Shown here piece after piece: positions 2,115-18,749 of a stretch of DNA of 20,983 bases. Origin of the DNA: a virus. The notes under the pieces are model-generated. The model did no database searches and was not told the origin of the DNA. It saw only the letters and a list, made by a program, of their open reading frames with translations. The stretch spans positions 1-20,983 of the IMG/VR virus record IMGVR_UViG_3300021142_001377; one strand, 5' to 3'. A program made the translations under genes and the position numbers. The number at the start of each line of letters is the position of its first letter. Position 1 is the stretch's first letter.

Positions 2115-2556
2115 CGTGTTGGCTTAGTATAAGCCGAATCTTTTCAATAGCCTTGTTATTACAGAAACTTATCTTAGCGCCCTGGTGCATTGGTTTTGGC
2201 CACTCACCTAAATCTATCCAACAATAGCCGCAACTTTCATTATTTAGTTCTGGCACAAATTCGTCCACCACTATACACACAAAGCTAACGTAGCGAAAGT
2301 GTTTATCCTTGCTATGATAGATATCGAACGGATAAATCTTTTCGATATCCGGAATAAAACCCATCTCCTCCGTCAATTCGCGCATTAATGCTTCTTTAGG
2401 TTGTTCACCTTCTTCTACCATACCGCCAAATAAAGACCACTGCATTGGATGTGTCTTATGTGGAGCACGTAGGTTTAACAATATTCGTGAGGTTTTAGTA
2501 GAAACTATTAGTGTTCCTACACCCATTTTATTCGTAATTGTTAATTGTGGTTCCAT
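2104..2556 (-). CDS. Nudix hydrolase
   Basis: 150 residues with a complete Nudix box GX5EX7REUXEEXGU: G45, E51, R59-E60, E63-E64 and G66 all fit, in GGMVEEGEQP followed by RELTEEMGF. The family uses Mg2+ to hydrolyse nucleoside diphosphate-X compounds (house-cleaning dNTPs, ADP-ribose, NADH, capped RNA); the substrate cannot be told from the motif. Phages commonly carry one. The start used overlaps the 3' end of the gp15-like gene by 29 bases. An internal ATG at 2526, just after the gp15 stop, would give MGVGTLIVST, which begins right at the first beta-strand of the fold and is equally plausible; neither start has a clear Shine-Dalgarno. It is last in the minus-strand run containing gp15, so likely co-expressed late. 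Confidence 0.85.
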   Translation of the reverse strand: MEPQLTITNKMGVGTLIVSTKTSRILLNLRAPHKTHPMQWSLFGGMVEEGEQPKEALMRELTEEMGFIPDIEKIYPFDIYHSKDKHFRYVSFVCIVVDEFVPELNNESCGYCWIDLGEWPKPMHQGAKISFCNNKAIEKIRLILSQHVTV

Positions 2557-3976
2557 CTGGCGCCGATATAATATTGTCTATGCGCCAATAGCCCGGTTGA
2601 TAGACACCATAGTAAGTATATGTCCACTCCTTGGTCGCAGCATCGAAAGTATACTGCGTCGAGTTCGTGTTATTTACCACGTAGTTTTTACCAGTGGAGT
2701 TTTTAGAATCAAATATTACAACCCAACTAATACCATTATATTCAATAATATCATTTGGATATGCTACAACATCTTGACCCCACGGACTAAATGGGACACC
2801 CGGTGGAATAGCAGGTTCTTCACCTTCGCTATTATGTGATGTTAGTAAATATCTTTGTCCAGCTAAGGGAGTCGGTAATCCATTTCCGGGCGTAACCTCT
2901 GTCGGATCTATAATTTCTAAGATAGGCAAAATAGTATTAGCAGGAAGTGTGTCAATGTCGGGAGTGAATAACAGCACGTTTTGACGTGTTGGATCTTGTG
3001 TGATCCCGCCAATAATGTCAGCATCGCTAACATCTAGGTTAGGGTCTAATTTTAGCCTTATTTTAGTGATATTAGGGCTAATTTGCCCATAGATTTCTAT
3101 AAGTTTTTGCCAGTTTAGTGTAGGATCTATTTGTCCATTTACATTCAACAAAGTAATTTCATCACCACCTGTTCCTTTAGCAACAGAGATCTTATAGTTA
3201 CCCTCAGTTGTAACAATCTGTATATCAATTGGGCCCAACGAAGTAAATGGATCATATGTGCCATCTAACTGGCCTGCTATGTTTTGTACATCGTTGCTAC
3301 TAAAAACTCTTGTAACAATCTCAGCAATAATACCACTTCTCTTAAGTTTAGCAGGTGGATTTATCCACCCTTCTATCTTAAACTTGAAGCTCATTACATC
3401 GCGTTCTTCTGCTCCACCTTGCGGAATACTACGATTTGTCCAAGTAAAATCTTCCATCCATACTTCAAATATACTTGTCCAGTCTAATATATTACTATTC
3501 TGTTGTAATTGTATAGATGGATTAAATATCATTTGAATCTGTTCTAAAATTTGTAATTTAGTAATCGTATTGGTTGTCCATACATCTAACTTAAATGTGA
3601 AATCATATGGCACAGGCATATACCTTTCTACATCCTGTCGAACACCAGGTCCAGTCCCGTATGTTTGTGTAAGAGCATCGTATTGTCTTTCCATAACAGA
3701 TACCTTACCGACGAATTGTGGATCTTGACGACGCTTCTCGTTCATCTTTATACCATCGATATATGCACTAAACATAGGTACAGGTAGTAATGTATTTTCA
3801 CTTGCACCCTTAATTAATTGTGCAACCATAGACGATGGGTCACCATAAACTATTGGAACTCGTTGTATTGTGTATAGCCCATTTGCATCTGGACCGTTCC
3901 TTACTTTTATGTCAGAGAATATTCTCATGAATTGTAATAAATATCTTTTCGTCTGGCCATCATAAAAAAAATCCAT
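2528..3976 (-). CDS. 15: T4 gp15-like tail sheath stabiliser / tail completion protein, extended
   Basis: 482 residues. The N-terminus (MDFFYDGQTKRYLLQFMRIF, then SDIKVRN and RVPIVYGDPS) matches the layout of T4 gp15 (FYNSSFRRY, LFSNIQIKR, RVPITYAS). The middle also fits: a YDFTFKLDVWTTN strand, ILEQIQMIFNPSIQ, and FKFKIEGWINPP against T4 LTFEVNGWMYPP. In T4, gp15 forms a hexamer at the top of the tail, locks the contracted or extended sheath and joins tail to neck. T4 gp15 is about 272 residues, so this protein carries roughly 220 extra C-terminal residues with a W/Y-rich end (NDIIEYNGISWVV; YQPGYWRIDN), probably an added surface domain. A minus-strand late-promoter box lies 34 bases upstream of the ATG. 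It is separated from the gp14-side genes by an inverted homing endonuclease. Confidence 0.85.
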   Translation of the reverse strand: MDFFYDGQTKRYLLQFMRIFSDIKVRNGPDANGLYTIQRVPIVYGDPSSMVAQLIKGASENTLLPVPMFSAYIDGIKMNEKRRQDPQFVGKVSVMERQYDALTQTYGTGPGVRQDVERYMPVPYDFTFKLDVWTTNTITKLQILEQIQMIFNPSIQLQQNSNILDWTSIFEVWMEDFTWTNRSIPQGGAEERDVMSFKFKIEGWINPPAKLKRSGIIAEIVTRVFSSNDVQNIAGQLDGTYDPFTSLGPIDIQIVTTEGNYKISVAKGTGGDEITLLNVNGQIDPTLNWQKLIEIYGQISPNITKIRLKLDPNLDVSDADIIGGITQDPTRQNVLLFTPDIDTLPANTILPILEIIDPTEVTPGNGLPTPLAGQRYLLTSHNSEGEEPAIPPGVPFSPWGQDVVAYPNDIIEYNGISWVVIFDSKNSTGKNYVVNNTNSTQYTFDAATKEWTYTYYGVYQPGYWRIDNIISAPDGTTINNYE

Positions 3977-4009: not shown

Positions 4010-4017
4010 TATTTATC
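4010..4017 (-). promoter_or_regulatory. T4-type late promoter box for gp15
   Basis: TATTTATC on the plus strand reads GATAAATA on the minus strand, 33 bases before the gp15 ATG. T4 gp55-directed late promoters are TATAAATA and cyanophage versions NATAAATA. The box probably restores late transcription of gp15 downstream of the inserted endonuclease gene. Confidence 0.65.
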
Positions 4018-4025
4018 ATACTATA

Positions 4026-4033
4026 GATAAATA
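4026..4033 (+). promoter_or_regulatory. T4-type late promoter box for the PD-(D/E)XK endonuclease
   Basis: GATAAATA 31 bases before the ATG at 4065, only 8 bases from the divergent box at 4010-4017. Two late boxes therefore sit back to back in one short gap. Confidence 0.65.
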
Positions 4034-4064: not shown

Positions 4065-4991
4065 ATGTATAAAGGCCCTGATCCACAAGATATAGACATA
4101 AATTATCCGATACACACATACGAATTAATTACGTGCTTAGTGAACGGCGAACAAAAGCGCATAATACAAGATAGATATCTATTGAAGTATGGAATTTCTA
4201 AAGTAGAATATCTAATTAAATTTCCTGAAGCACCGCTGAAATCGTTAGCCGCATCCGAGTCGTATAGTCGCGCAGCATCTACAGAAGAAGGCAGAAAACG
4301 CCGATCAGAAACAATTACAAATTTAAATCTCAATAGTGTAGATTTTCAGGAAAAAAGAAAGAAGGCCAGTAAAGATTTCTTAGAATCTGATAGAAGTAAC
4401 GAATATCGAAGAATTAAGTCTGAAATGGCAAAAAAACAACACAAGGAAACCGACTTAGAAGATCATATACGAAAGTATTATAAAGAACGCCACCCGGGAT
4501 CTGATGCACAGAAACAGGCATCAATACGATCAACCTTATATAATCCAGGATCATTACCGGAAGCTCGAGAAAAAGGTCGGCAAACCTATATAAGAAATAG
4601 TGAAATGGGTTTACATAATAAAGAAACAAAATTCAAGAAGAAATTATATAAAGAAACATCATTAATGTATCAATCATCCTATGAATTAGATTTCTTAGAA
4701 TTGTGTGATAATAAAGAAGTCTTGGCTAGGGTTAAGAATGCTCCGTGTTTTTCCGCTATAGACTATCCATACAATTTTTATGCACCAGATTATATATTAG
4801 ACGATATTTATGTGATAGAAATTAAATCGTGGTATATAGAAAATCTACAAGAGAAGCGGTGTCCGGGAATAATTAAGAAGAAAGAAGCATTGGTTATTAG
4901 TAAAGGATATAAGTTTCTTTATATTAAGGATAAAGATTATAATGAATTATTAAAAGTGTTTAGTTTTAATGTCCCAGCCATTAAACTTTAA
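4065..4991 (+). CDS. Free-standing homing endonuclease, PD-(D/E)XK-like
   Basis: 308 residues; ATG preceded by ACGGAG. Residues about 60-200 are highly charged, Lys/Arg/Glu-rich and probably helical, with NUMOD-like DNA-contact character (EEGRKRRSETITN; AREKGRQTYIRN). The catalytic core is C-terminal: YELDFLEL (E207), FYAPDYIL (D242) and VIEIKSWY (E252, K254), in the order E, PD, ExK seen in PD-(D/E)XK nucleases, including phage homing enzymes and Vsr-like folds. Such enzymes cut a recognition site in phages lacking the gene and spread by recombination. The gene faces the opposite way from the genes on both sides and overlaps the 3' end of the 162-aa gene by 42 bases, as expected of an invader. 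Assignment to a particular homing family is uncertain. Confidence 0.75.
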   Translation: MYKGPDPQDIDINYPIHTYELITCLVNGEQKRIIQDRYLLKYGISKVEYLIKFPEAPLKSLAASESYSRAASTEEGRKRRSETITNLNLNSVDFQEKRKKASKDFLESDRSNEYRRIKSEMAKKQHKETDLEDHIRKYYKERHPGSDAQKQASIRSTLYNPGSLPEAREKGRQTYIRNSEMGLHNKETKFKKKLYKETSLMYQSSYELDFLELCDNKEVLARVKNAPCFSAIDYPYNFYAPDYILDDIYVIEIKSWYIENLQEKRCPGIIKKKEALVISKGYKFLYIKDKDYNELLKVFSFNVPAIKL

Positions 4992-5438
4992 TTTTAGTGC
5001 TATTAGGTGCTGTTCGGCTTCGGATTTGTCACTAAAAACAAGCGTATCATATACGCCTAACGCACCCGGTTTAGATTTCACCATATCTATAGATTTTTTG
5101 CCACGCAAAAAATATAAATTAATATTATCGGATTTTACAAATTTACAATCTGTAGAAGGAACATCTATTATGATTGTCTGCTGAAATGGCGCTCCACGAT
5201 AACGAATTGGAAAATACAGAACGCCAGGTTTCATATCATCGTATTGTACCGTATTTGCCTTTTCTATATCCATAAATTCTTTATACATTTTAACATCTAC
5301 TTGATCTTCATAGACGAATTTTTTTGATTCTATTAGCATTTCTTCTAATCCGATAGTTAGATGAGAATCTGTGCTAAAAGATTTATCGAACATAAAAGAA
5401 TTCCATTCTTTTTTAGATATTACTTCCCCTACAATCAT
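4950..5438 (-). CDS. Unidentified protein between gp14-like and gp15-like genes
   Basis: 162 residues, not recognised. The start overlaps the stop of the upstream gp14-like gene by one base (TAATG), and AAAGG precedes it, so the two are translationally coupled. No signal peptide or membrane segment. It has a charged N-terminal half (ISKKEWNSFMFDKSF; LEEMLIESKKFVYEDQ) and a beta-rich middle (GVLYFPIRYRGAPFQQTIII). Position between two neck/tail-completion genes suggests a structural or assembly role in the head-tail joint, but this is inference from location only. Its last 42 bases overlap the convergent endonuclease gene, so the endonuclease may have altered its C-terminus. Confidence 0.75.
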   Translation of the reverse strand: MIVGEVISKKEWNSFMFDKSFSTDSHLTIGLEEMLIESKKFVYEDQVDVKMYKEFMDIEKANTVQYDDMKPGVLYFPIRYRGAPFQQTIIIDVPSTDCKFVKSDNINLYFLRGKKSIDMVKSKPGALGVYDTLVFSDKSEAEQHLIALKLKFNGWDIKTKHF

Positions 5439-6655
5439 TAATTACCTTTCTTTGCAGCTCTATCGTCTGCTATTTTTGATCTTGCCGCTTCTGCTGCTGT
5501 CACTGCTTTCTTACGATCTGCATATAAATCAACCTTCTGGCGAACAATTTCGGATACAGCTTGTTTCTGTGGAACAATAGTGCCGTTTGATAGTATTGTG
5601 TCAACATTATTATCAATAAAAGTGTCAAGTACTCTATTATAACTCGACCAGTTCTTTAATACATTTTGTTCTATTAATTTATATACAGGGCCTTGTTTTT
5701 GAAATAATCTTTCAGGGAAATAATCTATGCGTAGATAGTATTGTCCATCTGTCATACCAGTAGGGAAGCTTATACCAGCACCGACGAGTGGTCCACCATT
5801 TGGAGGTTCACCATCACCACTAAAATAATAACTACCTATCACAGGATAGTTTGTATTTGGGTCAATGTATATGTATAGGTTGGCACTCTCAAAGAATTTA
5901 GGATCAAAGAAAGCATTTTGTTCGGCTTCTGCAACAATAGCATCTGTTATACCGATAATCTTGCAGAATAAGTTTAATGAGGAAGTAATATTAGGGTTAG
6001 GTCCTGTTCCTGGATTACCATCGATAGAAGTATTGGTAAATCCATCTGGCATAATACCTATGCCTTGCCCGACTCCGCCGTCATTCTGCCCAGATGCAGC
6101 CTGATCAGTAATTTGCGTAAACTCTGTAGAAGCAGTCATTAGTTTAGCTCTAACTAACCAAATATGAGGGAACCATTTCTGCCCATATCCAGCAGCAGCA
6201 TAAAGCGCATCTTGCACTACATAATATCTATTTATACCTACTGCGTTATCAAATATAGGGACATCTCTATAACTAGGGAACTCTAAAACATCGCCAGCTA
6301 TAAGTTTTCTACCAAGTGAATCTATCATATCTGTATAATGAAATTGAATTCGTATTACATCTGAAGATAAAAAAATGCCAAATTGGGATAAATCGTAATT
6401 TACGTCCTGAGGAGTATGATGTCCACGTAACTCAATAACATTAGGGTCATATTTTCTATTATTATTAGTTAAAAATAGTACATCTTGGATAGTCGTTAAG
6501 GATGTATCTGTGCTACCATTTGCATCCGTTGTTGGACCCTCGTACATATGCACAAGAATACCATCACCTGCAATACGGAAATTTTCACCCACTGTTCTAT
6601 CAGTGAAGTTAAAATCTGCTCCACGGACCGGATTCCAGAGACTTATGCGTGGCAT
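5438..6655 (-). CDS. Probable T4 gp14-like neck (head completion) protein
   Basis: 405 residues; ATG preceded by AGGAGC. The N-terminus ([20 protein letters not shown]) and the segment [18 protein letters not shown] followed by [20 protein letters not shown] and [13 protein letters not shown] resemble the part of T4 gp14 where GDLIYFP, a neck-contact loop and an AKFIYSGEE strand occur. In T4, gp13 and gp14 form the neck that receives the finished tail. T4 gp14 is about 256 residues, so this is longer; a Gly/Asn/Pro-rich insertion lies near residues 190-225. The C-terminus is Lys/Ala-rich and helical ([20 protein letters not shown]). Gene order (this gene, 162-aa gene, gp15) follows T4 gene order 14-15, which supports the call more than sequence alone. 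Alternative: another neck or connector protein. Confidence 0.6.
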
Positions 6656-7323
6656 TTTATTGCTCCTATTATTTTATATTCTGGAAAATTGATAGAATGG
6701 CATCTATATCGGGTTGTTTCTTCATGTACGCCAATAGCCTTTGCTGCGTCTCTGACAGATGAATATATGATTCCGAAAACTTCGACGCTTAGTTTACTTA
6801 TTTCTGTCATTCTATTAAGATTGGCAGATTCTTTTTCAGTACGCGGCCTATTACTTTGCCAGGGTTTTTTCATACCCTTTCGGGAATTACTCATTTTTTG
6901 CCTTGTTTCGGTTGATAATTTTTTACCCATATTAAATATAGATAATTTTTGTTTCTGTTCTTCAGACATAGCCGCACATATTCTATTCCTAGATGCTTCG
7001 GCGATTTTCTCCTTCGTTGCGGCAGTATGTCTGTATCCACTGGTACCTTCACCACCATCTGTTAGATTTACTAAAATTCCTGTCTTATTATTTTTTCGTC
7101 CGTACCACATTATCATCCTTCTTTCTATAGCAAATGCACCTAACTCTGTTAGATTATTCTCCAATATTACAATATAATTTACATCTTTAGGTATTCTGGC
7201 TGAAGTATGTTTTTCGTTCATTCTATTCTTGCTACCTTTACCGATATAATAGGGCGTACCTGCCTTAGCAGTCGCTGAATCTTTCGATCTTAAATAAGCG
7301 TAAACATAGAAATTTTCCAACAC
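6643..7323 (-). CDS. GIY-YIG homing endonuclease with NUMOD3 and NUMOD1-like modules
   Basis: 226 residues. The N-terminal nuclease has FYVYAYLR (the GIY-side strand), [12 protein letters not shown] (YIG motif plus following Arg) and [11 protein letters not shown] (catalytic Glu about residue 67). Two NUMOD3-type DNA-binding stretches follow ([15 protein letters not shown] and [15 protein letters not shown]). A C-terminal NUMOD1-like helix-turn-helix comes last ([20 protein letters not shown]). The start is GTG at 7323 (or TTG at 7320), with CGGAGA upstream. Its last 13 bases overlap the start of the gp14-like gene, so it sits directly upstream of that gene, where a gp13-type gene would be expected. 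No gp13 gene is visible in the window. Confidence 0.88.
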
Positions 7324-7341: not shown

Positions 7342-7349
7342 TATTTATC
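7342..7349 (-). promoter_or_regulatory. T4-type late promoter box for GIY-YIG gene and gp14-like operon
   Basis: TATTTATC on plus, GATAAATA on minus, 18 bases before the GTG start of the GIY-YIG gene. Divergent with the box at 7367-7374. Confidence 0.6.
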
Positions 7350-7366
7350 GATCGAAGCCCTCCAAA

Positions 7367-7374
7367 GATAAATA
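7367..7374 (+). promoter_or_regulatory. T4-type late promoter box for fibre gene at 7434
   Basis: GATAAATA 59 bases upstream of the ATG, in the short gap between divergent genes. Confidence 0.6.
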
Positions 7375-7433: not shown

Positions 7434-8435
7434 ATGTCAGTAACACTCAACGCTAAAGGTACGAGTGTACCATCCTTTACGATCGGTAAAGGCGGCGTCA
7501 CCATATATCAGGGATTAACTGATCCCAGTCTTTCATATTCGATGAAGGACGGCGATTATTGGCTTGATAAATCCGTAAATGCATTAAGGGTATGGACTAC
7601 AGTTGGTCTAACCTGGATGGCCCCGCAACTCGGTGATTTACACTTTTCATCTGGCTCCATTATTGCCCCTGGAGGTCAAGATTTAACATTATCTGTTGAT
7701 GCAAGTCATTTCGTTAATGTTGATTCAGGTAATTCTGGGCCAGCACTTATAACAACAAATAATAGTCAAGATCTTCATATTAATCCGGCAACCGGTGGGG
7801 GCCAATATCTTGTATTATGTGGAGATAGATGGCCAGCAGCAGATGGTACAAATGGCCAGTCACTCAAGACAAATGGTACAGGAATATTGAGTTGGTATAC
7901 ACCGACTGTGGGCACCGTAACATCTGTTTCTGGTGATGGTGGTAGCACAGGATTAACATTTACCGGTAGCCCGATAACATCGGCAGGAACTCTTACATTA
8001 GCCGGTACATTATCTGCATTTAATGGTGGTACGGGTGCAACAAGTTCTACAGGTGCATTCAACAACCTTGCTCCATCTCAAGTAACAAACGGTGGAAAAT
8101 TTTTAATAACCGATGGCACAAATACATCCTGGAATAATGTTGCAAACTCGGGAACAGCTACCATAGATTTTGGTTCTGCTCCCGGTGGCCTCTCGACAAG
8201 TGTGGCAATTACCGGATTAACAAATATTCATTCTACGAGTGTTGTAATATTGCAAATAATGGCCGATGCTACCAGCGTTGATCATTCAGCAGCAGAGCAC
8301 AGAGCATTTACAACCTATGCAAATTTAACCTATGATACTCCGGTGACAGGTAGCGGATTTACAATTTATTCAGATGCATCACAGCTGGTGCAGGGTAGAT
8401 GGACGGTAAAGTATAGTTGGTTAAATTCAAATTAA
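7434..8435 (+). CDS. Tail-fibre-like structural protein
   Basis: 333 residues; ATG preceded by AGGAG. The N-terminus contains a short module (IYQGLTDPSLSYSMKDGDYW, then LRVWTTVGLTWMAPQLGDLHF) of the type that describes a displayed surface in phage fibre proteins. The middle (residues about 155-215) has Gly/Ser/Thr-rich beta-repeat sequence, VTSVSGDGGSTGLTF and AGTLTLAGTLSAFNGGTGAT, shared in style with the large fibre downstream. The C-terminal 90 residues (TATIDFGSAPGGLSTSVAIT onward, ending VKYSWLNSN) form a separate probable beta-sandwich. There is no S74 domain. Likely a short fibre or baseplate-associated fibre; the exact role is not determinable from sequence. Confidence 0.75.
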   Translation: MSVTLNAKGTSVPSFTIGKGGVTIYQGLTDPSLSYSMKDGDYWLDKSVNALRVWTTVGLTWMAPQLGDLHFSSGSIIAPGGQDLTLSVDASHFVNVDSGNSGPALITTNNSQDLHINPATGGGQYLVLCGDRWPAADGTNGQSLKTNGTGILSWYTPTVGTVTSVSGDGGSTGLTFTGSPITSAGTLTLAGTLSAFNGGTGATSSTGAFNNLAPSQVTNGGKFLITDGTNTSWNNVANSGTATIDFGSAPGGLSTSVAITGLTNIHSTSVVILQIMADATSVDHSAAEHRAFTTYANLTYDTPVTGSGFTIYSDASQLVQGRWTVKYSWLNSN

Positions 8436-8556: not shown

Positions 8557-11500
8557 ATGGCAATCCAACTTTCAGGTGTTCAACTTGGCCCAATCGGAGG
8601 AGGTCCATCTTCTCTAAATCTTGAAGACTTACATGATGTATTAATTGTAACACCTCAAACCGGTCAGTATCTTAGATATAATAATGGTATCTTAGAATGG
8701 CAAAATTCATTTATAGATGAAGATGCCTATAAATTTCTTACAGGTACTAGTTTATCTGGTATAACTGGAACTGGATTGATCGGATCAAACGGTGTTCAAC
8801 TTACAGCACTTTCCGGGCCACAATCAATCACTGTTGCATTAGCTTTATCGACATCAGGTGATGCATCAGGTACGGTATCTGGCGGTGTTCTACCTATAAC
8901 ACTCGCAACAGTAAATGGTACAGTTGGTACATATGGTTCCTCTACTGCAATTCCTATTGTGACAGTAGATGCTAAAGGTCGAGTAACAAATGTTAGTACC
9001 GTATCGTTTGCTGGAACCGCGCCTTTAGCAACAAGTTTAGCTGCTGGCGCAACAGGTTCACTTCCGTATCAATCAGCAGCGTCAACAACAGCATTTTTAG
9101 CAGCAGGAACAACAAGTCAAGTGCTTGTATCCGGCGCAGCCGGACCAAGTTGGACAAATACACCAACATTAACCGGTACTAATTTTACCGGTGTACCAAA
9201 TGCAGCATTAGTTGGCTCAGGTTCATTGACAGTCGGTTCTACAAACATAGCGTTAGGTGCAACGGCACTGACATTAGCCGGATTGACTTCTGTCACAGCA
9301 ACAAATTTCTACGGTAATGCCGATACGACAACCACAGCAACAAATTCTATTATTACAGATGATACAGCTTCTGGTTCAAATATGTACCCTGTATGGGCTA
9401 CAGCAGCCGGAGCAAGTCGCCCATTAAAGATCACTAGTACAGGTTTATATTTTAAACCATCTACAGGTGTATTAACTGCAACTGTTTTTGCAGGATCTGG
9501 TGCAAGTTTAACAAATATCCCGAACAGTGCGTTGACAAATAGTTCTGTAACAATCGGTTCTACAGCAGTAGCACTTGGTGCAACTGTAACAACATTCGCT
9601 GGATTAACATCAGTTACATCAACTGGATTTACTGGTGCATTAACTGGTAACGCTTCTACAGCAACATTGGCAACCACAGCAACTAATGTTGGTGGCGGTA
9701 CTTCTGGTGCAATGCCTTATCAGACAGGTGTCGGTACAACTGCGTTATTGACAGCAGGTACTTCGAGTCAGGTTCTTACATCTGGTACAACACCGGGGTG
9801 GACAAATACACCGACACTTACTGGTACAAATTTCAGTGCTATCCCTAATGGAGCATTGTCAAACAGTTCGGTGACAGTTGGTTCTACAAGTATCAACCTC
9901 GGTGCGTCCGCAACAACCTTGGCTGGTTTAACATCAGTTACATCGACTGGATTTATTGGCGCATTAACTGGTAATGCAACTTCGGCAACGAATATTGCAG
10001 GCGGCGCAACAAACGGATTTCCATACCAATCAGGTGCAGGTGCTACCACATTCCTTGCACAAGGCACAGGTGTCTTGCAAGAAACAGCAGGCGCGCCGAG
10101 TTGGACAACAACACCGACATTAACTGGTACAAACTTTAGTGCTATTCCTAATGGAGCATTATCTAATAACACTGTAACAGTTGGTTCTACATCAATCGCA
10201 CTAGGTGCAACAGCTACTACTATCGCCGGATTAACATCAGTTACGTCAACTGGATTCACCGGCGCATTAACCGGCGCAGCAAGTGCAAACGTATTAAAGG
10301 CTGGTGATACAATGACTGGCCTATTGATATTAAGTGGTGATCCTACTACAGCATTAGGTGCTGCTACAAGACAATATGTCGATAATGCAGTTACTGGTCT
10401 AACATGGAAAGATGCGGCCAATTTGTTATCTAATGCTAATGTCCCATTAACTGGTACAGACTTAACAATCGATGGTCATCCTTCACTTACTCCGGCACAA
10501 GGTAATGGTTATCGTATATTATTAATCAATCAAACGACAGTTACAGAAGATGGCATATATACTGCTACCGTCACTGGATCAGTCGCTCCTTATGCATATT
10601 CACTTGCACGTTCATCTGATGCAGATACAAATGCAGAACTAATTGGTGCTTCTATATTTGTATTAGAAGGCACAGATTATGCTAATACCGGTTGGGTACA
10701 GTCTAATCACTATATAACTGGATTTGCAGGACAAAGTTGGGTACAATTTTCCGGATCTGGATCCTATTCAGGCGGTACTGGTATTAACGTATCAGGAACT
10801 ATTATTACCAATACTGGTGTTACAAGTGCATTAGCAGGAACAAATATTTCTGTATCCGGCGCAACAGGTGCAGTTACAATTGCTGTAACAGGTACAGTCC
10901 CAACAGCAACTACAGCAACTAATCTTGCAAGTGGTGCAGCAAATAGCTTACCTTATCAAACTGGCGCAGGTGCTACAACATTCCTTGCACAAGGCACAGG
11001 TGTTCTTGCCGAAACAGCAGGTGCCCCAAGTTGGACAACAACACCGACATTAACTGGCACTAATTTCACAGGCATACCAAATGGTGGCCTAACTAATAGC
11101 TCTGTAACGGTTGGTACAACAGCAATTGCATTAGGTGCAGCGGCAACAACTATCGCTGGCTTAACAAGTGTCACATCAACTGGATTTACTGGTGCATTAA
11201 CAGGCAACGCAACTACTGCTACTACAGCAACTAACCTTGCTAGTGGTGCGGCAGGGTCACATCCATACCAGACTGGTTCGGGCGCAACATCAATGTTGGC
11301 AGCAGGAACATCAAGTCAAGTTCTTATATCGGGAACAACACCTAGTTGGACAAATACTCCTACATTGACTGGTACCAATTTTACTGGTGTACCTAATAGT
11401 GCATTAACAAATAATTCTGTAACATTCGGTACTACTAATGTTGCATTAGGCGGCACATCGGCTTCTATTGTTGGACTAACTGGTGTAACAGCAACAACAT

Positions 11501-14500
11501 TCACTGGTGCATTAACTGGTAACGCTTCTACAGCAACAACAGCAACTAACTCTACCAATTCGGCAATCACCGATGATACATCATCTAATGCAGTAAAATA
11601 TATTACTTGGGTAGATTCAGTTAGTGGCAATAATCCGCAGAAGGTATCTAGTACACAGTTTACTATGAATCCGAGTACAGGTGTTGTAACAGCAACTGGC
11701 TTTGCAGGTTCAGGATCAGGACTTACAGGTATTCCAAATTCATCACTAACAAATAGTTCAGTAACAGTTGGTACAACATCTCTACCTTTAGGTGCAACAT
11801 CTACTACATTAGTTGGTTTAACTTCTGTTACATCAACAACATTTGTTGGTGCATTAAATGGTAATGCTAATACCGCAACAGCATTTGCAACAGGACGTAC
11901 AATTTCTGTATCAACTGATGCTACAGGAACTTCTGCTTCGTTTGATGGATCTGGCAACGCAACTATTCCTCTTACATTAGCAACAGTCAATTCAAACGTT
12001 GGATCATTCAGCGCATTCACTGTTAACGGTAAAGGTCTTATTACAGCAGCTTCGCATCTTGGAGCAACAGGCGATGTAACCGGAACAGAATCTGCAGGAA
12101 GTATTGCACTAACACTAGCAACAGTAAATTCTTCACCAGTTGCAGCTTCCTTCCAGAAGATTACTGTTAACGGTAAGGGCTTAACAACAGCAACATCGGC
12201 AGTATCAGCAAGCGATATTACTACAGCATTAACATTTACCCCAGTTAATAAGGCTGGCGATACAATGACAGGTTTATTGATATTAAGTGGTGATCCTACA
12301 AATGCACTTGGTGCGGTAACAAAACAATATGCTGATGCTATTGCATCTGGTGTAACGGTACATAATTCTTGTGAAACATCAACAACAGTAGCAGGTAATT
12401 TATCAGCTGCCACATACCTCAATGGTACAGGTGGTGTTGGTGCAACACTTACAGCTACAGCAAATGGATCAATTAATGCTCTCAATACAGGTACTGGTGT
12501 CGGCGGATATAATACATTAATAGTTGGTTCACGTGTCCTTGTTAAAGATCAAGCAACTACATATCAGAATGGTGTTTACGTAGTTTCTCAATTAGGTGTC
12601 ACTGGCATAAGTCCGTGGATATTAATAAGAGCAACTGACTTTGATGGTTCTCCATCAACAGAAATTGCAGCTGGTGTTCTTGTTTATGTACAAGAAGGTA
12701 CAAATAGTGGAACACAGTGGGTTGAAACAGCTATCGGCACCGGTCAGCCTGGTGATTATATTATTGTTGGTACTAATCCGGTAGTGTTTAGTCAATTTGC
12801 AGGTGCAGGCATATATACTTCAGGCTCGGGTATCAACATTGCAAGTAATGTTATTTCTAATACAGGCGTATTGAGTAACGTAGCAGGTACAGGTATTTCT
12901 GTGTCAGGTGCAACAGGTAACGTAACTATTGGTAATACCGGTGTGTTGAGCGCAGTAGCAGGAACAAATATTTCTGTATCTGGTGCAACAGGTAACGTAA
13001 CTATTGCAGTAACTGGTACTGTACCGAGCGCAACAAACTTAGCAAGTGGTGCAGCAAATAGCTTACCATACCAAACAGGCGCAGGTACTACAGCATTCCT
13101 TGCACAAGGCACAGGTGTTCTAGCTGAAACAGCCGGAGCCCCTTCTTGGACAACAACTCCAACACTTACTGGTACAAACTTTACAGGTATTCCAAACGGT
13201 GGCTTAACTAATAGTTCTGTAACAGTTGGTACAACCGCAATTTCATTAGGTGCAGCCCAAACAACTATCGCTGGTCTAGTATCGGTCACCTCGACGGGCT
13301 TTACCGGCGCATTAATTGGTAATGCTTCTAGTTCGACTTATGCAACCAACACAACAATCACCGATGATACAACTAATGCATCTATCGTTTATCCAACTTG
13401 GGTAACAGCCAACACAGGTAACATCGGACAGAAAGTATCAAGTACGAAGATGTCCTTTGTACCAAATACAGGTATCTTGAGTGCAACTGGTTTTGCAGGT
13501 AGCGGTGCAGGTTTAACGGCCATCCCAAATAGTTCATTAACAAATAGTTCAATCACATTTGGTGTAACTTCGCAGGCATTAGGATCAACAGTATCTACAT
13601 TAAGTGGATTGACATCTGTAGCAGCAACAACATTTACTGGTGCGTTAACTGGTAACGCTTCTACAGCAACAAACGTAGCAGGAACTGGTATCACTGGTAC
13701 TACACTTGCCTCGAACGTAGTTAATTCTTCATTAACATCTGTTGGTACAATTAGTTCTGGTACATGGTCTAGTGCATTCGGTGCAGTATCTGGTGCTAAT
13801 TTAACAAGTTTAACCGGTGCTAACGTAAGTGGTGCAGTTGGTTCTGCAACAAATATTGCTGCCGGTACAGCCAATCAAATCCCATACCAAACAGGTGCCG
13901 GTGCTACTTCGTTCTACAGTGCAGCTAATTACGGTGTTCATACCTATGGTGCTACTGGTACACCAGCCTCAGTTGCTGGCGCAGCAGGTGTATTGCAAGG
14001 ATCGGCAAGTGCAATCCCTGCATTTACAACAACTCCAACACTTACTGGTACAAACTTTACTGGTATACCAAATAGTGCATTGGTTGGATCAGGTGCATTA
14101 ACAGTTAATGGAACAAGTATTTCGTTAGGTGGAACAGCTACAGTAACAGCAGCAGCTGGTACGCTAACTGGTACCACACTTAATGCAACAGTCGTATCAT
14201 CTAGTTTAACATCTGTCGGAACAATTGCAACTGGTGTATGGAATGGAACAGCTATTGCAAATGCTAATCTAGCCAACAGCCAGGTTACAATCGGTTCTAC
14301 CGCTGTATCATTAGGTGCAACAGCTACAACTATCGCTGGTTTAACATCAGTTACATCAACCGGCTTTACTGGTGCATTAACTGGTGCAGCAAGTTCGAAC
14401 GTATTGAAAGCCGGTGATACAATGACTGGTTTATTAGTATTAAGTGCAGATCCGAGTGCAGCACTTGGCGCAGCAACAAAACAATATGTTGATAAGGTGG

Positions 14501-14949
14501 CACCTGGCCCAGCAACTGCTATCAACGCAACATCACAAACAACTGGCACATTTTATGTAGTCGGTGTCGCAGCAACTGGCTCAAATCAAACACCTAGCTG
14601 TGCAACCGGTGCATCAATTACTAACACAATTAGCTTTAATGCTGCTGATGGAACAGTTAACGCAGTGATATTCAACACAACGTCGGACAAAACACAGAAA
14701 ATGAATGTGGCGGATATTGTTAATGCGTCAGATACGATAAATAAATTACAAGGTGTAGAATTTGACTGGGTTAATAATGGCAATAAATCTTCCGGAGTTA
14801 TCGCTCAACAATTAGAATTAGTATTACCACACTTAGTAAATACTGATGCTAATGGATTAAAGAGTGTTAATTATGCAGGTATTACAGGATATTTAATTGA
14901 GGCAATTAAGGAACTTCGATCAGAGTTAGAACTATTCAAGGGTAAATAA
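8557..14949 (+). CDS. Giant modular tail fibre with S74 chaperone domain
   Basis: 2130 residues; ATG preceded by ACGGAG. The body is made of Ser/Thr/Gly/Ala-rich beta-repeat modules. The unit TPTLTGTNFTGIPNGALTNS, followed by SVTVGSTAIALGATATT and GLTSVTSTGFTGALTGNA, recurs with variations: seven units keep the TLTGTNF start and about eleven keep the later part. Three copies of a KAGDTMTGLLILSGDPT plus ALGAATKQYVD motif occur (about residues 575-610, 1230-1265 and 1950-1985). The first two are followed by larger inserted domains (for example TEDGIYTATVTGS and KDQATTYQNGVYVVSQ). The last 90 residues form a Peptidase_S74 domain (TTSDKTQKMN, GVIAQQLELVLPHLV, LIEAIKELRSELELF), which folds and trimerises fibres and self-cleaves. 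By size it is probably the long tail fibre. Repeats invite recombination and length change. Confidence 0.9.
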   Translation: MAIQLSGVQLGPIGGGPSSLNLEDLHDVLIVTPQTGQYLRYNNGILEWQNSFIDEDAYKFLTGTSLSGITGTGLIGSNGVQLTALSGPQSITVALALSTSGDASGTVSGGVLPITLATVNGTVGTYGSSTAIPIVTVDAKGRVTNVSTVSFAGTAPLATSLAAGATGSLPYQSAASTTAFLAAGTTSQVLVSGAAGPSWTNTPTLTGTNFTGVPNAALVGSGSLTVGSTNIALGATALTLAGLTSVTATNFYGNADTTTTATNSIITDDTASGSNMYPVWATAAGASRPLKITSTGLYFKPSTGVLTATVFAGSGASLTNIPNSALTNSSVTIGSTAVALGATVTTFAGLTSVTSTGFTGALTGNASTATLATTATNVGGGTSGAMPYQTGVGTTALLTAGTSSQVLTSGTTPGWTNTPTLTGTNFSAIPNGALSNSSVTVGSTSINLGASATTLAGLTSVTSTGFIGALTGNATSATNIAGGATNGFPYQSGAGATTFLAQGTGVLQETAGAPSWTTTPTLTGTNFSAIPNGALSNNTVTVGSTSIALGATATTIAGLTSVTSTGFTGALTGAASANVLKAGDTMTGLLILSGDPTTALGAATRQYVDNAVTGLTWKDAANLLSNANVPLTGTDLTIDGHPSLTPAQGNGYRILLINQTTVTEDGIYTATVTGSVAPYAYSLARSSDADTNAELIGASIFVLEGTDYANTGWVQSNHYITGFAGQSWVQFSGSGSYSGGTGINVSGTIITNTGVTSALAGTNISVSGATGAVTIAVTGTVPTATTATNLASGAANSLPYQTGAGATTFLAQGTGVLAETAGAPSWTTTPTLTGTNFTGIPNGGLTNSSVTVGTTAIALGAAATTIAGLTSVTSTGFTGALTGNATTATTATNLASGAAGSHPYQTGSGATSMLAAGTSSQVLISGTTPSWTNTPTLTGTNFTGVPNSALTNNSVTFGTTNVALGGTSASIVGLTGVTATTFTGALTGNASTATTATNSTNSAITDDTSSNAVKYITWVDSVSGNNPQKVSSTQFTMNPSTGVVTATGFAGSGSGLTGIPNSSLTNSSVTVGTTSLPLGATSTTLVGLTSVTSTTFVGALNGNANTATAFATGRTISVSTDATGTSASFDGSGNATIPLTLATVNSNVGSFSAFTVNGKGLITAASHLGATGDVTGTESAGSIALTLATVNSSPVAASFQKITVNGKGLTTATSAVSASDITTALTFTPVNKAGDTMTGLLILSGDPTNALGAVTKQYADAIASGVTVHNSCETSTTVAGNLSAATYLNGTGGVGATLTATANGSINALNTGTGVGGYNTLIVGSRVLVKDQATTYQNGVYVVSQLGVTGISPWILIRATDFDGSPSTEIAAGVLVYVQEGTNSGTQWVETAIGTGQPGDYIIVGTNPVVFSQFAGAGIYTSGSGINIASNVISNTGVLSNVAGTGISVSGATGNVTIGNTGVLSAVAGTNISVSGATGNVTIAVTGTVPSATNLASGAANSLPYQTGAGTTAFLAQGTGVLAETAGAPSWTTTPTLTGTNFTGIPNGGLTNSSVTVGTTAISLGAAQTTIAGLVSVTSTGFTGALIGNASSSTYATNTTITDDTTNASIVYPTWVTANTGNIGQKVSSTKMSFVPNTGILSATGFAGSGAGLTAIPNSSLTNSSITFGVTSQALGSTVSTLSGLTSVAATTFTGALTGNASTATNVAGTGITGTTLASNVVNSSLTSVGTISSGTWSSAFGAVSGANLTSLTGANVSGAVGSATNIAAGTANQIPYQTGAGATSFYSAANYGVHTYGATGTPASVAGAAGVLQGSASAIPAFTTTPTLTGTNFTGIPNSALVGSGALTVNGTSISLGGTATVTAAAGTLTGTTLNATVVSSSLTSVGTIATGVWNGTAIANANLANSQVTIGSTAVSLGATATTIAGLTSVTSTGFTGALTGAASSNVLKAGDTMTGLLVLSADPSAALGAATKQYVDKVAPGPATAINATSQTTGTFYVVGVAATGSNQTPSCATGASITNTISFNAADGTVNAVIFNTTSDKTQKMNVADIVNASDTINKLQGVEFDWVNNGNKSSGVIAQQLELVLPHLVNTDANGLKSVNYAGITGYLIEAIKELRSELELFKGK

Positions 14950-14991: not shown

Positions 14992-14999
14992 GATAAATA
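14992..14999 (+). promoter_or_regulatory. T4-type late promoter box for the DGR target gene
   Basis: GATAAATA 28 bases before the ATG at 15028, in the 78-base gap after the giant fibre. AAGGAG precedes the ATG. No other promoter is evident before the RT gene, so the whole DGR may be transcribed from here. Confidence 0.65.
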
Positions 15000-15027: not shown

Positions 15028-15885
15028 ATGTCAATAAAAATAAGTGGAACGGTCGTAATAGACGATTCAAGAGCAATCAGCGGAACATCAGTGACCGCAT
15101 CGAGTTTCATAGGAACAGCAGCCACCGGTGCACTAAATATGCCAACCGGAACTACTGCTCAACGTCCGGTACCGGCTGCTGGAATGATTCGGATGAATTC
15201 AACTACAGGTTTACCCGAATGGTATTCATCTGCTTATGGTTTTTGGATACCATTTAATAGTTCCAGACCAGTACCTAATATAGGTGATTCATTCCAAGGC
15301 GGGTATTTTGCCGGATACATCTCGTATGCAGGTACCGGCGTAGCAAGTCATTATTTAATTGTATCACCCAAAGCATCTGGTGAAACAACAGCGGCCTGGG
15401 ACAGTACAGGCGGCGGATCAACTACCGGTGCCACTTCATTATACGACGGAGCCGCAAATACTGCTGCTATTCCGGCGGATGCCAGATATGCTGCTGCACA
15501 ATTTGTTAAGGGGTTATCAATCGGCGGATACACTGACTGGTATATTCCGGCCAAAAACGAATTAGAAGTAGCATACTACTTTTTGAAAAATGTAACGCAA
15601 AATAATTATTCACCAGGAACCTATGGATCAAATGCCAATGCTGTATCACCGGAACCAATCTCAACTACATATACAGCAACAGTTCCGGGCCAAACTACTG
15701 TTACCGCATTTCAAGTCGGCAATTCCGAGGCGTTTGCCGACTACTACTTCTGGTCAAGTACAGAGTACTCTGCTACGTACTCGTGGAACCAGTACTTCTA
15801 CTCTGGCTACCCGGGTTACCAGGACTACTACTACACTAAGACGAATGCGCTCTATGTTCGTGCGTTTAGGCGTTTAGCCATTTAG
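15028..15885 (+). CDS. DGR target: tail protein with C-type-lectin-like variable domain
   Basis: 285 residues with a strong AAGGAG ribosome site. The N-terminal 85 residues are fibre/attachment-like (TAQRPVPAAGMIRMNSTTGL, EWYSSAYGFWIPF). From about residue 90 to the end is a DUF1566/FGE-type C-lectin-like fold: GDSFQGGYFAGYISY, GGYTDWYIPAKNELEVAY, FWSSTEYSAT and the closing strand LYVRAFRRL, as in other DGR variable proteins where a conserved VRxxR strand anchors the fold. The variable repeat covers nt 15729-15870, that is residues about 235-281, leaving only five residues after it. Eleven Tyr in this region correspond to Asn codons in the template. Likely a receptor-binding protein whose ligand site is rewritten by the retroelement. 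Confidence 0.92.
   Translation: MSIKISGTVVIDDSRAISGTSVTASSFIGTAATGALNMPTGTTAQRPVPAAGMIRMNSTTGLPEWYSSAYGFWIPFNSSRPVPNIGDSFQGGYFAGYISYAGTGVASHYLIVSPKASGETTAAWDSTGGGSTTGATSLYDGAANTAAIPADARYAAAQFVKGLSIGGYTDWYIPAKNELEVAYYFLKNVTQNNYSPGTYGSNANAVSPEPISTTYTATVPGQTTVTAFQVGNSEAFADYYFWSSTEYSATYSWNQYFYSGYPGYQDYYYTKTNALYVRAFRRLAI
15729..15870 (+). repeat. DGR variable repeat (VR)
   Basis: 142 bases aligned to TR 16385-16523 (139 bases) with one 3-base gap. There are 14 substitutions, all at TR adenines (11 A to T, 2 A to C, 1 A to G) and none at C, G or T. The invariant 3' end, TATGTTCGTGCGTTTAGG, is the likely initiation-of-mutagenic-homology segment; VR and TR diverge right after it (cgttta versus tggtag). 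Confidence 0.95.
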
Positions 15886-15904
15886 TCATTTAAATATTTG
15901 AAAT

Positions 15905-16258
15905 ATGGCACAATATCAACATCTTCCAATTTACAAAACAACCTATCAGTTGTTGGAAACAGTAACCCGAAGAACCAAAGATTTCCCCAGAGATTTTAAA
16001 TATTCTCTCGGTGATAAAATACGAAACGAGTGTATTGAATTAGTGGTATCAATATACAAAGCAAATTCCACTAAACAACGACAGGAGTTTATACAGAATA
16101 TATTGGACAGAGTACAAGTAATTGAATTAATGCTAAGATTATCCAAAGACTTACATCTGTTATCAGTAGACAGTTTTTCCGAAATAGTCACCCTGACTGA
16201 CTCGCTTGCGCGTCAGGCACAGGGATGGATCAATCATTCAAATTTGAGGGCAGAATGA
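15905..16258 (+). CDS. avd: Accessory variability determinant (Avd), four-helix bundle
   Basis: 117 residues. LPIYKTTYQLLETV, then TKDFPRDFKYSLGDKIRNEC, IELVVSIYKAN, VQVIELMLRLSKDLHLLS and QAQGWINH follow the typical sequence of the Avd/S23-type four-helix-bundle family. In the Bordetella phage BPP-1 DGR, Avd forms a positively charged pentamer that binds the reverse transcriptase and template RNA and is needed for mutagenic retrohoming. It lies 19 bases after the target gene and 126 bases before TR, the classic target-avd-TR-RT order. No clear Shine-Dalgarno precedes the ATG (aaatatttgaaat), so translation may depend on read-through from the target gene or be low. Confidence 0.92.
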   Translation: MAQYQHLPIYKTTYQLLETVTRRTKDFPRDFKYSLGDKIRNECIELVVSIYKANSTKQRQEFIQNILDRVQVIELMLRLSKDLHLLSVDSFSEIVTLTDSLARQAQGWINHSNLRAE

Positions 16259-16537
16259 TAATGGCTACGGCGATTATCAGCGACCTATCTATCGCGGGCC
16301 ATGACCGTTGGGAAACCAACGAAAAGGCGCAAGCCAGTCGTCATATGGAGTATTCTGTGTGGCGTCGTGTGAGTGCATGGCCTTGGCGTTTGCCGACAAC
16401 AACTTCTGGTCAAGTACAGAGAACTCTGCTACGAACTCGTGGAACCAGAACTTCAACTCTGGCAACCCGGGTAACCAGAACAACAACAATAAGACGAATG
16501 CGAACTATGTTCGTGCGTTTAGGTGGTAGAATCAAAT
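16256..16537 (+). ncRNA. DGR template RNA region (approximate limits)
   Basis: The stretch from the avd stop to the RT start has no supported protein. It carries TR plus foldable sequence: hairpin 16256-16279 (TGATAAT/ATTATCA, starting at the avd stop codon), a long-range stem 16297-16303/16376-16382 (GGCCATG/CATGGCC), and inside it a hairpin 16306-16321 with stem CGTTGG/CCAACG and a GAAA tetraloop. In studied DGRs the functional RNA includes TR and flanking segments, and extends into avd and RT. True ends are unknown; I give only the intergenic part. Confidence 0.6.
16385..16523 (+). repeat. DGR template repeat (TR)
   Basis: 139 bases homologous to VR. It is rich in AAC triplets (13 in the frame matching VR), the hallmark of adenine-directed diversification. 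It starts GGCGTTTGCC and ends GCGTTTAGG. Translated in the VR frame it would read FADNNFWSSTENSATNSWNQ and so on to a TAG stop, but it is a template, not a gene. It ends 14 bases before the RT ATG. Confidence 0.95.
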
Positions 16538-17647
16538 ATGAAATCTGATCTGACAGTTTCGGAACTTTTTCAAGCGTACTATGATTGTCGAAAAACAAAA
16601 CGCAATACATGGAATGCTCTTGAATTTGAAGAAAAATTAGAGCGAAACCTGATGGATTTGTATTATGAACTAATTGAGAATTCGTATCAACCGGGTCGAT
16701 CAATTATGTTTGTGGTTACCCGGCCGAAAGCTCGGGAAGTATGGGCTGCTAACTTTCGGGATCGTATTGTGCATGATGTGTTATATAATCGTCACTCGCC
16801 GGCATTTTATCGATCATTTATACACGATAGTTATGCCTGTATACCGGAAAAAGGCACGCTCAATGCCTCTAATCGTGTACAGTACTTCATGCGTTCGGCA
16901 ACAAAAAATCATACTATATCTGCATGGTATATGAAGGCAGATGTTGCCAACTTTTTTGTATCCATTAATAAATCAATACTCGATGAATTGTTGGCAAGAA
17001 AAATCACCGATCCATGGTGGCTACAATTAACCCGAACTATTTTACACAAAGATCCAACCGAAAATGTATTCATAAAAAGTAAATCCGATATGTTATCGAA
17101 GGTGCCACCGCATAAGAGTTTACTTAATGCACCTAAAGGATTCGGCTTGCCGATTGGTAATTTGTCTAGTCAGTTTTTCGCTAATGTATATCTTGACCCA
17201 CTCGATCAGTACGCAAAGCATACACTTAAATTAGAATACTATGCCCGGTATGTGGATGATATCATGGCTGTTGACAAAAACGGCACAGAGCTGCATGAAA
17301 AATATGACCGCATGGCAATTTTCGCTAAAGATAATTTAGGATTAAGTTTCCACCCGAACAAAAAAGAAATAAATAAAGTTGAACACGGGGTTAACTTTGT
17401 CGGGTATATCATTAAACCTAGATGTAAGTATGTGCGTAGATCAACGATAAAGAATATGTATTATAAGACTGGTCATTGTGAAGATTTTGAATCCTTACGG
17501 GCAACAACCAATAGTTATTTCGGAATGTTACGCCACGCCGATGCATACACAGAACGGAAAAGATTTGCTAAACAACTCGGTGCAAAGGGTGCATGGTTTG
17601 ACAGAAAATTAACTAAATTAAAAGGAATCGAATTATGTATATCATAG
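16538..17647 (+). CDS. DGR reverse transcriptase
   Basis: 369 residues from ATG 16538. A GTG at 16523 in the same frame lies on the last base of TR and is a less likely start; AGGTGG at 16521-16526 can serve as Shine-Dalgarno for the ATG. RT motifs in order: VVTRPKAREVWAANFRDRIV (fingers), YMKADVANFF (motif A, D135), GLPIGNLSSQ (residues 203-212, DGR/group-II-like motif 4), FANVYLDPLDQY, YYARYVDDIMAV (catalytic YVDD, 238-241), and HPNKKEINKVEHGVNFVGYI (motifs D and E). Length fits DGR RTs (about 300-400 residues) and there is no maturase or endonuclease domain. The enzyme copies TR RNA with errors at adenines and the cDNA replaces VR. The 3' end overlaps the next gene by 13 bases. Confidence 0.95.
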   Translation: MKSDLTVSELFQAYYDCRKTKRNTWNALEFEEKLERNLMDLYYELIENSYQPGRSIMFVVTRPKAREVWAANFRDRIVHDVLYNRHSPAFYRSFIHDSYACIPEKGTLNASNRVQYFMRSATKNHTISAWYMKADVANFFVSINKSILDELLARKITDPWWLQLTRTILHKDPTENVFIKSKSDMLSKVPPHKSLLNAPKGFGLPIGNLSSQFFANVYLDPLDQYAKHTLKLEYYARYVDDIMAVDKNGTELHEKYDRMAIFAKDNLGLSFHPNKKEINKVEHGVNFVGYIIKPRCKYVRRSTIKNMYYKTGHCEDFESLRATTNSYFGMLRHADAYTERKRFAKQLGAKGAWFDRKLTKLKGIELCIS

Positions 17648-18051
17648 TTACCAATGTAGATAGTAGTACGCAATTGGCCTGCACAACCGAACCCATGAAA
17701 TCTGGTCCGGGATTTCCGGCCGTAAATAACTTAGTTATTGATTGGCAAGACGAATCCAATTGGCCTATCGCCACCGTTAACGGTGTATACCAAAATACCC
17801 CGCTGTATTATGGAACATGTGACGATAGTGTTGATAGTGTCTCGGGTTTACCCGGTGTGATTGAAATTATCGATGAAGCAACATTCATCAGTAGAAAGCG
17901 GGACGAGTACTATGCCCGTAGACCCTTTTTATCTTGGGTATTTGACGAAACCCACTTCACCTGGTCGGCCCCGGTGCCAATGCCCATGGATGGCAAGATG
18001 TACACGTGGGACGAAGCAGCTAACAGTTGGGTAGAGCAAGTAATGTTATGA
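17635..18051 (+). CDS. Small phage protein of unknown function, coupled to RT
   Basis: 138 residues; AAGGAAT upstream, start inside the last 13 bases of the RT gene. The C-terminal half has a W/P-rich pattern: RRPFLSWVFDETHFTWSAPV, then PMPMDGKMYTWDEAANSWVE. This style of small protein is common near structural and fibre genes of T4-like phages, but I know no established function. The N-terminal half (MYIIVTNVDSSTQLACTTEP) may be a beta-rich domain. Translational coupling to the RT could make it an accessory of the DGR, or it may simply be the next gene of the late operon. No signal peptide or membrane segment. Confidence 0.8.
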   Translation: MYIIVTNVDSSTQLACTTEPMKSGPGFPAVNNLVIDWQDESNWPIATVNGVYQNTPLYYGTCDDSVDSVSGLPGVIEIIDEATFISRKRDEYYARRPFLSWVFDETHFTWSAPVPMPMDGKMYTWDEAANSWVEQVML

Positions 18052-18185: not shown

Positions 18186-18749
18186 ATGAAAAACAAAGTG
18201 AGATATTCGATTGTCCTTCCAACATATAATCACTGTGAAGATTTATTAAAACCGTGTTTGGAATCAATTACCAAATATACTGACAAAGAAACTGAAGTTA
18301 TCGTTGTGGCTAATGGCTGCACTGATAATACTCTGGAATATTTACATTCACTAACTGACATTAATCTTCGTGTAATTTGGGTGGACGAACCACTTGGATA
18401 CACCAAGGCAACTAATCTCGGCATCAAACAGGCGCAGGGCGAGTATATCGTTCTGCTCAACAACGACACTGTGTTGCTACCACAACCGGTAAACTATTGG
18501 TTAGAACTACTTAACGCACCGTTCGTCGACCCTAAAACAGGTATCACCGGGCCAGTCAAGTTTGATTGGGATTGTGGCGGCCGCCAGTATCAATGTATGG
18601 CTTTCTGGTTAGTGATGATCAGACGAGAAGTATTTGAGAAGATAAGTGAGTCTAGTTCAGGGAAAACATTTTCAGAAGAATCCTGTCAGAAAATGAGTGA
18701 AGCAAAGCGTGGCCTTAAAAGAGGCCCGTATAAGAAAGCAGGAAAGTAA
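18186..18749 (+). CDS. Truncated GT2 glycosyltransferase fused to NUMOD3-like endonuclease tail
   Basis: 187 residues. Residues 1-155 are a family-2 glycosyltransferase (GT-A fold): YSIVLPTYNHCEDLLKPCLE, TEVIVVANGCTDNT, GYTKATNLGIKQAQGEYIVL and LNNDTVLL (DXD-equivalent), then AFWLVMIRREVFEKI. In full-length enzymes the last strand is followed by a conserved C-terminal part (acceptor region, E/DD motif) that is missing here. Instead residues about 157-187 read SGKTFSEESCQKMSEAKRGL then KRGPYKK, a NUMOD3-type DNA-binding motif found at the end of phage homing endonucleases. The simplest reading is insertion of a homing endonuclease into the sugar-transferase gene, followed by deletion that fused the two in frame. 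Whether the product retains transferase activity is doubtful. Weak ribosome site. Confidence 0.75.
   Translation: MKNKVRYSIVLPTYNHCEDLLKPCLESITKYTDKETEVIVVANGCTDNTLEYLHSLTDINLRVIWVDEPLGYTKATNLGIKQAQGEYIVLLNNDTVLLPQPVNYWLELLNAPFVDPKTGITGPVKFDWDCGGRQYQCMAFWLVMIRREVFEKISESSSGKTFSEESCQKMSEAKRGLKRGPYKKAGK

Follow-up and report, generated by a model that had tools for sequence, protein, structure and literature searches.

A diversity-generating retroelement with a folded RNA leader in front of its template repeat, in the tail-fiber region of a probable jumbo myovirus

Does the tail-fiber region of the virus contig IMGVR_UViG_3300021142_001377 carry a complete and working diversity-generating retroelement (DGR), and how closely does this element follow the system from which the mechanism is understood? 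That system is phage BPP-1, the source of almost everything known about DGR mechanism, in which RNA lying behind the template brings in the reverse transcriptase (RT) and the Avd protein and provides the priming site. The window analyzed here is the whole contig of 20,983 bases. The original prediction placed a complete DGR at 15028-17647, comprising a target gene with a C-terminal variable region (VR), avd, a template repeat (TR) and an RT with a YVDD motif. The positions and the protein families agree with it, and by its sequence the locus is a DGR. In our reading, to which we assign a probability of about 80%, a jumbo myovirus carries here, in its tail-fiber region, a complete DGR that is most likely functional and has a leader that serves as a scaffold, a removable core and a target that is diversified at its tip. 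The observations behind this reading are the anatomy of the locus, the adenine specificity of its substitutions, the VR variation of its relatives, a covarying leader, empty sites and scars. By itself, the DGR adds one more case to a very common class of elements; its RNA layout, its probable jumbo host and the deletion scars set it apart. Its main parts are as follows.

15028-15885, plus strand: target (variable protein, VP) gene, 285 residues, with an N-terminal fiber-type linker segment and a C-terminal Lcl_C / C-type-lectin-like domain
15729-15870, plus strand: VR, 142 nt, at the 3' end of the target gene; its 3' 19 nt are the same as in TR (candidate site for the initiation of mutagenic homing, IMH)
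15905-16258, plus strand: avd, accessory variability determinant, 117 residues, with Pfam and PHROG matches
16385-16523, plus strand: TR, 139 nt, aligned to VR
16538-17647, plus strand: RT, 369 residues from ATG, YVDD intact, beginning 15 nt past TR

All DGR genes of the window are full length; an alternative GTG start at 16523 would add five residues to the RT. Avd matches Pfam PF22296 bAvd (6.1e-13) and phrog_3206, 'Avd protein of DGR' (1.9e-27). The RT matches RVT_1 (8.7e-14) and phrog_1423 (7e-96), and both its YVDD motif and the DGR-type motif 'IGNLSSQ' are intact. Its best relative of solved structure is 8ub7, titled 'Reverse transcriptase' (3.8e-40, 141 bits), which we take to be the BPP-1 DGR complex, whereas group II and 'retron-type' solved chains score 2e-5 or worse with 27 bits or fewer. 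All its neighbors in the RT tree, which was built without a retron or group II outgroup, have TR/VR pairs. Together these results support the predicted DGR type of the enzyme over a retron or group II type.

The substitutions that separate VR from TR are confined to adenines, as had been predicted. All 14 of them lie at TR adenines (hypergeometric P = 2e-8, with 44 adenines among the 139 aligned bases), of which 12 are A>T, two are A>C and none is A>G. VR also contains three bases that TR does not, 15823-15825, which form one codon inside an AAC run. The proposal that AAC runs slip in steps of three (PMC12875486) fits this extra codon, and extra VR codons in or beside AAC runs are also present in, for example, L009, L116 and L135. 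A contraction of TR is a less likely origin, since the related loci L008 and L009 have TRs of equal length and only the VR of L009 has the three additional bases.

The RT clade is active in nature, as near-identical relatives differ in VR almost exclusively at TR adenines. L008 and L009 encode identical RTs, their flanks are 0.3% different and their TRs differ by one base, but in their VRs 21 of 46 TR-adenine positions and none of 80 others are different (21/126 bases). A second pair, L022 and L032, has flanks with two differences in 4378 bases and VRs that differ at 18 of 46 TR-adenine positions and at one of 92 others (19/138 bases). For L012 and L013 the corresponding counts are 23/44 and 4/87. 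The VR polymorphism at TR adenines beside a constant TR, by which the original prediction proposed to recognize a working element, is thus found in close relatives. By analogy with these relatives, in which the variation was observed, the element is probably active in the phage of the window as well.

The RNA part of the locus is where it departs from BPP-1. A leader of 127 nt lies between avd and TR and is predicted to fold (z = -4.9).

16258-16388, plus strand: predicted structured leader of the DGR RNA, with a 5' hairpin, a long closing stem P1 and three inner hairpins
16297-16303 pairing with 16376-16382, plus strand: leader stem P1, closing around the inner hairpins

When the leaders of 11 loci were aligned, 96.6% of the cells paired and 24 of the 33 pairs had changes on both sides, a result reached by none of 500 shuffles; sliding the partners by 1-3 columns reduced the pairing to 30-46%. 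R1, a covariance model built from the aligned leader loci, matches the window with 148.5 bits at 16258-16403. It has 25 matches in 78 sources, all of them between avd and TR and 14 in loci outside the model building. Ten new loci found with R1, aligned and folded independently, gave the same architecture. R1 has no match in 80 genomic DGR loci (L083-L162), in 82 DGR-less or jumbo loci, or in BPP-1-like loci.

On the 3' side of TR no conserved fold was found: the first 150 nt of RT give -1.3 kcal/mol, with double changes in one of seven pairs. The spacing of the parts agrees with this layout. Loci arranged like the window, with 120 nt or more between avd and TR, mostly have 0-30 nt between TR and RT, whereas in loci whose RT is 35% identical or less this gap is mostly 125-290 nt, and avd, where matched, mostly lies about 100 nt or less from TR. 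BPP-1 carries the Rfam family Phage_DGR behind its TR (L333:2822-2954); an Rfam scan of the window gave no match, and hence no Phage_DGR spacer behind TR. The predicted BPP-1 architecture therefore holds for the order of the genes (mtd-avd-TR-brt in BPP-1) but not for the RNA, which is reversed: the fold precedes TR, and there is no 3' spacer. The two systems also share adenine-specific TR/VR differences, Avd, RT, a C-type-lectin-like target and an IMH-like 3' end. They differ in their RTs, which are 33% identical, in the folded leader of the window and in their hosts, a 42-kb phage versus a probable jumbo myovirus. No stable DNA fold (z -0.3) was found behind VR at the place of the BPP-1 cruciform or hairpin.

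The closest parallel to the leader comes from six cultured phages with related RTs (Pseudomonas phages Cruim01, SC_8_H2H8_2017, LPPA56 and phPA-G, Burkholderia phage Magia and Shewanella phage QDWS), which carry the Rfam RNA RT-15 in front of TR, between avd and RT. Their RTs are 44-49% identical to that of the window. In the RT tree, loci with an R1 or RT-15 RNA form one clade (support 98), within which the RT-15 phages are the sister group; L011, a contig that starts at its RT, is also placed inside this clade. The inner hairpins of RT-15 are unlike those of the window leader, and RT-15 (RF03018) does not match window positions 16230-16560 even at E values up to 10, its gathering score not being reached. 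Conversely, R1 recovers three of the six RT-15 loci weakly (E 1e-5 to 0.004), and none of the 16 R1 loci scanned, out of 25, is recognized by Rfam. As RT-15 misses the window and R1 reaches only three of the six phages, and then weakly, the leader appears, from its position, the sister RT clade and these cross-matches, to be a diverged relative of RT-15 and not a member of it. We know of no published function for RT-15.

What could the leader do? We see an even chance that this RT clade uses an inverted RNA scaffold, in which the 5' leader would hold RT and Avd and set the start of the complementary DNA (cDNA), so that priming would differ from that in BPP-1, and that the clade entered jumbo phages, in the window, as a module that moves in and out between the tip gene and its partner. 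A rather less probable explanation is that the leader is a cis-regulatory structure that controls RT translation or separates the avd, TR and RT transcripts, with the binding part hidden in the RT coding sequence as an overlapping spacer. Riboregulators do lie ahead of genes, as the leader lies ahead of RT, and the name RT-15 implies mere association with an RT. However, the first 150 nt of RT, in which no conserved structure was seen, speak against such a hidden spacer, TR itself intervenes between leader and RT, and restriction to one RT clade is expected of a co-evolved binding partner. It is very improbable that the leader is conserved as a protein-coding frame (16225-16548) instead of an RNA. 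This frame is open across the leader in the window and in L004, but stem-swapping double changes occur in 24 of the 33 pairs, the loop insertions and deletions are not multiples of three, and the frame passes TR out of phase. The coding explanation was rejected on the grounds of the covariation and the loop indels. A clade with its structured RNA on the other side of TR is a natural experiment on which RNA parts matter, and RT-15, listed in Rfam as an RNA of unknown role, gains a testable job.

How did the element come to be at this place? The gene behind it offers a way to follow its history.

17635-18051, plus strand: ORF138, conserved partner gene, with a 13-nt overlap with the RT stop

In each of the loci L003 to L015 a homologue of ORF138 comes immediately after RT. 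A scan for this gene found it in 240 phage loci, 80 of which were kept for analysis. Among these 80, a target-like gene is present in 76, and only the L004 group of four contigs has avd and a full RT; L180 has an RT fragment at its contig edge. The target-like gene is a direct neighbor of ORF138 in about 70 loci that lack a DGR, at a distance of -4 to 69 nt; in the L004 group the two are separated by 1.75 kb of DGR. Such pairs (e.g. L168, L192 and L220) consist of the same two genes that flank the window DGR, but have no avd, TR or RT between them. No RT was found anywhere in fifteen long DGR-less contigs. When a tree of the target domain was calculated with VR left out, the DGR-less L168 came out as the sister of the window (support 91). 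The clade that contains both has 23 DGR-less and two DGR-bearing rows, and at least three changes of state are forced.

Two of the empty sites contain remains of the element. L192 retains ATGGCTCAATACAAGCATCTCCCA (MAQYKHLP), the first eight codons of avd, between its tip gene and ORF138 (alignment score 33.5), and L173 has a decayed copy of the avd start (score 26, with shuffles at 15.5 or less). Because of these stubs, at least some of the empty sites are taken to have arisen by deletion of the DGR core; elsewhere, at the site of the window too, the change may have run in either direction. The empty sites and avd scars record gain and loss of a DGR at one defined place, so that the cost and benefit of targeted mutation become comparable between otherwise similar phages. 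ORF138 was also considered as a DGR accessory gene, which was rejected since most copies have no DGR nearby.

In what kind of phage does this happen? The T4 gp15-type tail sheath stabilizer (2528-3976) and a structural protein (5438-6655) are closest to those of jumbo myoviruses, first PA5oct and Paride (Arenbergviridae, Wroclawvirus; 44% and 39%, 287 kb), then Atu_ph07, Phosso and SCTP-2. PA5oct, Paride and Atu_ph07 share with the window the order structural gene, gp15-type tail gene, NUDIX gene (39, 44 and 63% identity in Paride), although Paride has no DGR beside its tail genes and none of the jumbo-lineage records examined has an RT. Metagenomic relatives of the tail genes are 70-98% identical and reside on contigs of up to 385 kb; the 385-kb contig is identical at 75-76%, and together with a 210-kb contig the range is 75-86%. 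T4-type phages are present among 274 gp15 matches, ranked below jumbo phages of 285-490 kb, and a genuine T4-type gp15 occurs in the DGR relatives L012 and L013. Hence, the predicted T4-like character applies to the type of the stabilizer, while the closest relatives are jumbo myoviruses and not phages of the Tevenvirinae type. A gut virus catalogue reports both jumbo phages and many DGRs, its main text not giving the overlap (PMC8241571), and a survey of 224 jumbo phages lists no FGS-type (C-type-lectin-fold) domain, the kind diversified by DGRs (PMC7824862).

The fiber region upstream of the DGR consists mainly of one fiber of 2130 residues, encoded by a 6.4-kb gene directly 5' of the DGR (8557-14949). 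Of the 'two large fibers' originally described, this one stands; the others are a gene of 333 residues (7434-8435) and the C-terminal part of a collagen-like fiber (2-1480), open at the contig end. The prediction of late-promoter logic holds in part.

14992-14999, plus strand: GATAAATA, a motif resembling late promoters, 29 nt ahead of the target gene; the evidence is positional, not functional

This motif is enriched, with 11 copies in the window versus 1.46 expected (none of 100 shuffles was as high), and is located before the target gene, before tail genes and as divergent pairs between opposed genes. The canonical T4 late promoter TATAAATA, on the other hand, is not enriched in the window (one copy versus 1.7 expected per strand).

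It is quite unlikely that the contig is a mis-assembly in which the DGR cassette of a smaller phage was joined to a jumbo-phage fragment. Consistent with such a join, no RT was found in seven jumbo-lineage records of 25-385 kb, in a search that detected its positive control, and the RT relatives of the cassette reside on contigs of 75 kb or less. However, GATAAATA precedes both the target gene and the tail genes, the N-terminal linker segment of the target occurs in fiber genes of jumbo relatives, the order VP-avd-TR-RT-ORF138 is uninterrupted, and the large fiber gene directly upstream has jumbo homologues.

The target protein itself matches Pfam Lcl_C at 4.9e-08, 1.2 bits below the cut-off. 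AlphaFold modeled its C-terminal 205 residues well and its N-terminal part poorly, and the model resembles the C-terminal domain of Legionella Lcl (8q4e; Z 13.1, root-mean-square deviation 2.9 over 126 residues). The N-terminal linker segment that recurs in the fiber genes of jumbo relatives is 'GTTAQRP..GM.R.NT'. The fold and the shared linker agree with the predicted tail protein, which, by analogy with BPP-1 and from its position, would reasonably be expected to bind a receptor.

In the mechanism that we propose, the fiber region would be transcribed late, and TR would be transcribed together with the folded leader ahead of it. RT and Avd would assemble on this leader-TR RNA, TR would be copied into cDNA with misincorporation opposite adenines, and the cDNA would take the place of VR, at the very end of the target coding sequence, through the shared identical 3' end (IMH). 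This would diversify the exposed face of the C-type-lectin-like tip domain, where the protein most likely meets the host surface. The DGR core (avd, leader, TR and RT) would behave as a removable module between a common tip gene and ORF138, carried by unrelated phages and lost at least twice with avd stubs left behind. The steps of cDNA priming, homing and receptor switching are carried over from BPP-1 and would apply here by analogy.

Four points weigh against our reading. The phage of the window gave no second VR allele, as exact 30-mers of its target gene and RT match no other contig in the collection, which may lack close records. The role of the leader, which would take over from the BPP-1 3' spacer in holding RT and Avd, is deduced from sequence comparisons. 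The contig is only 21 kb long, and a jumbo size for the genome of its phage is estimated from relatives. Finally, 11 of the 15 Asn codons have become Tyr in the window VR, the highest fraction among the 126 TR/VR pairs collected in this analysis (median 0.19). Such a VR is as compatible with strong selection on few variants, or with fixation long ago, as with ongoing diversification. There is accordingly some, though a small, chance that this phage carries an intact but silent element whose Tyr-rich VR was fixed by selection. The extreme rank and the lack of A>G changes would suit such an element, and DGRs have demonstrably been lost often in the family, but the genes are full length, the TR/VR substitutions are confined to adenines and near relatives are active. 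Moreover, among the products at AAC codons in the reconstituted BPP-1 system, Tyr is the most frequent (14%; PMC12875486), so that bias and selection can together explain the Tyr-rich VR.

Several further observations concern VR and the tip gene. In nine of 12 DGRs whose RT is flanked by a VR on either side (L099, L102, L110, L115, L118, L119, L127, L135 and L155), the downstream VR is richer in its A>T (tyrosine) share. Tip genes without any DGR (L167-L246) are highly variable in their last ~55 residues, where DGR-bearing relatives have their VR, so that ordinary evolution varies the same patch. An AT-rich repeat (TTTAATCNTTTAATNNTTT-like; window 15886-15904) between the stop of the VR gene and avd is conserved in the DGR-bearing L003, L004, L009, L010, L012 and L014 and also in L173, the stub locus, and may be an element of the target side.

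ORF138 (17635-18051; L003-L015 and L167-L246) is a widespread partner of Lcl_C tip genes, with its first ~95 residues conserved and its C-terminus swapped. A Foldseek comparison of its predicted fold (predicted local distance difference test 87.5) with solved structures gave no convincing match; perhaps it is a partner in tip or fiber assembly.

Elsewhere in the window, the divergent GATAAATA pairs at 4010-4033 and 7342-7374, between opposed genes, look like bidirectional late promoters. Two homing-endonuclease-like genes (4065-4991 and 6643-7323) have 100% protein identity in L249 and L266, where the tail genes that flank them are 83-92% and 95-98% identical, respectively, which suggests that they were recently transferred. 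A family-2 glycosyltransferase gene (18186-18749) stops after its N-terminal third, and its end, judged by eye, is like an endonuclease DNA-binding repeat.

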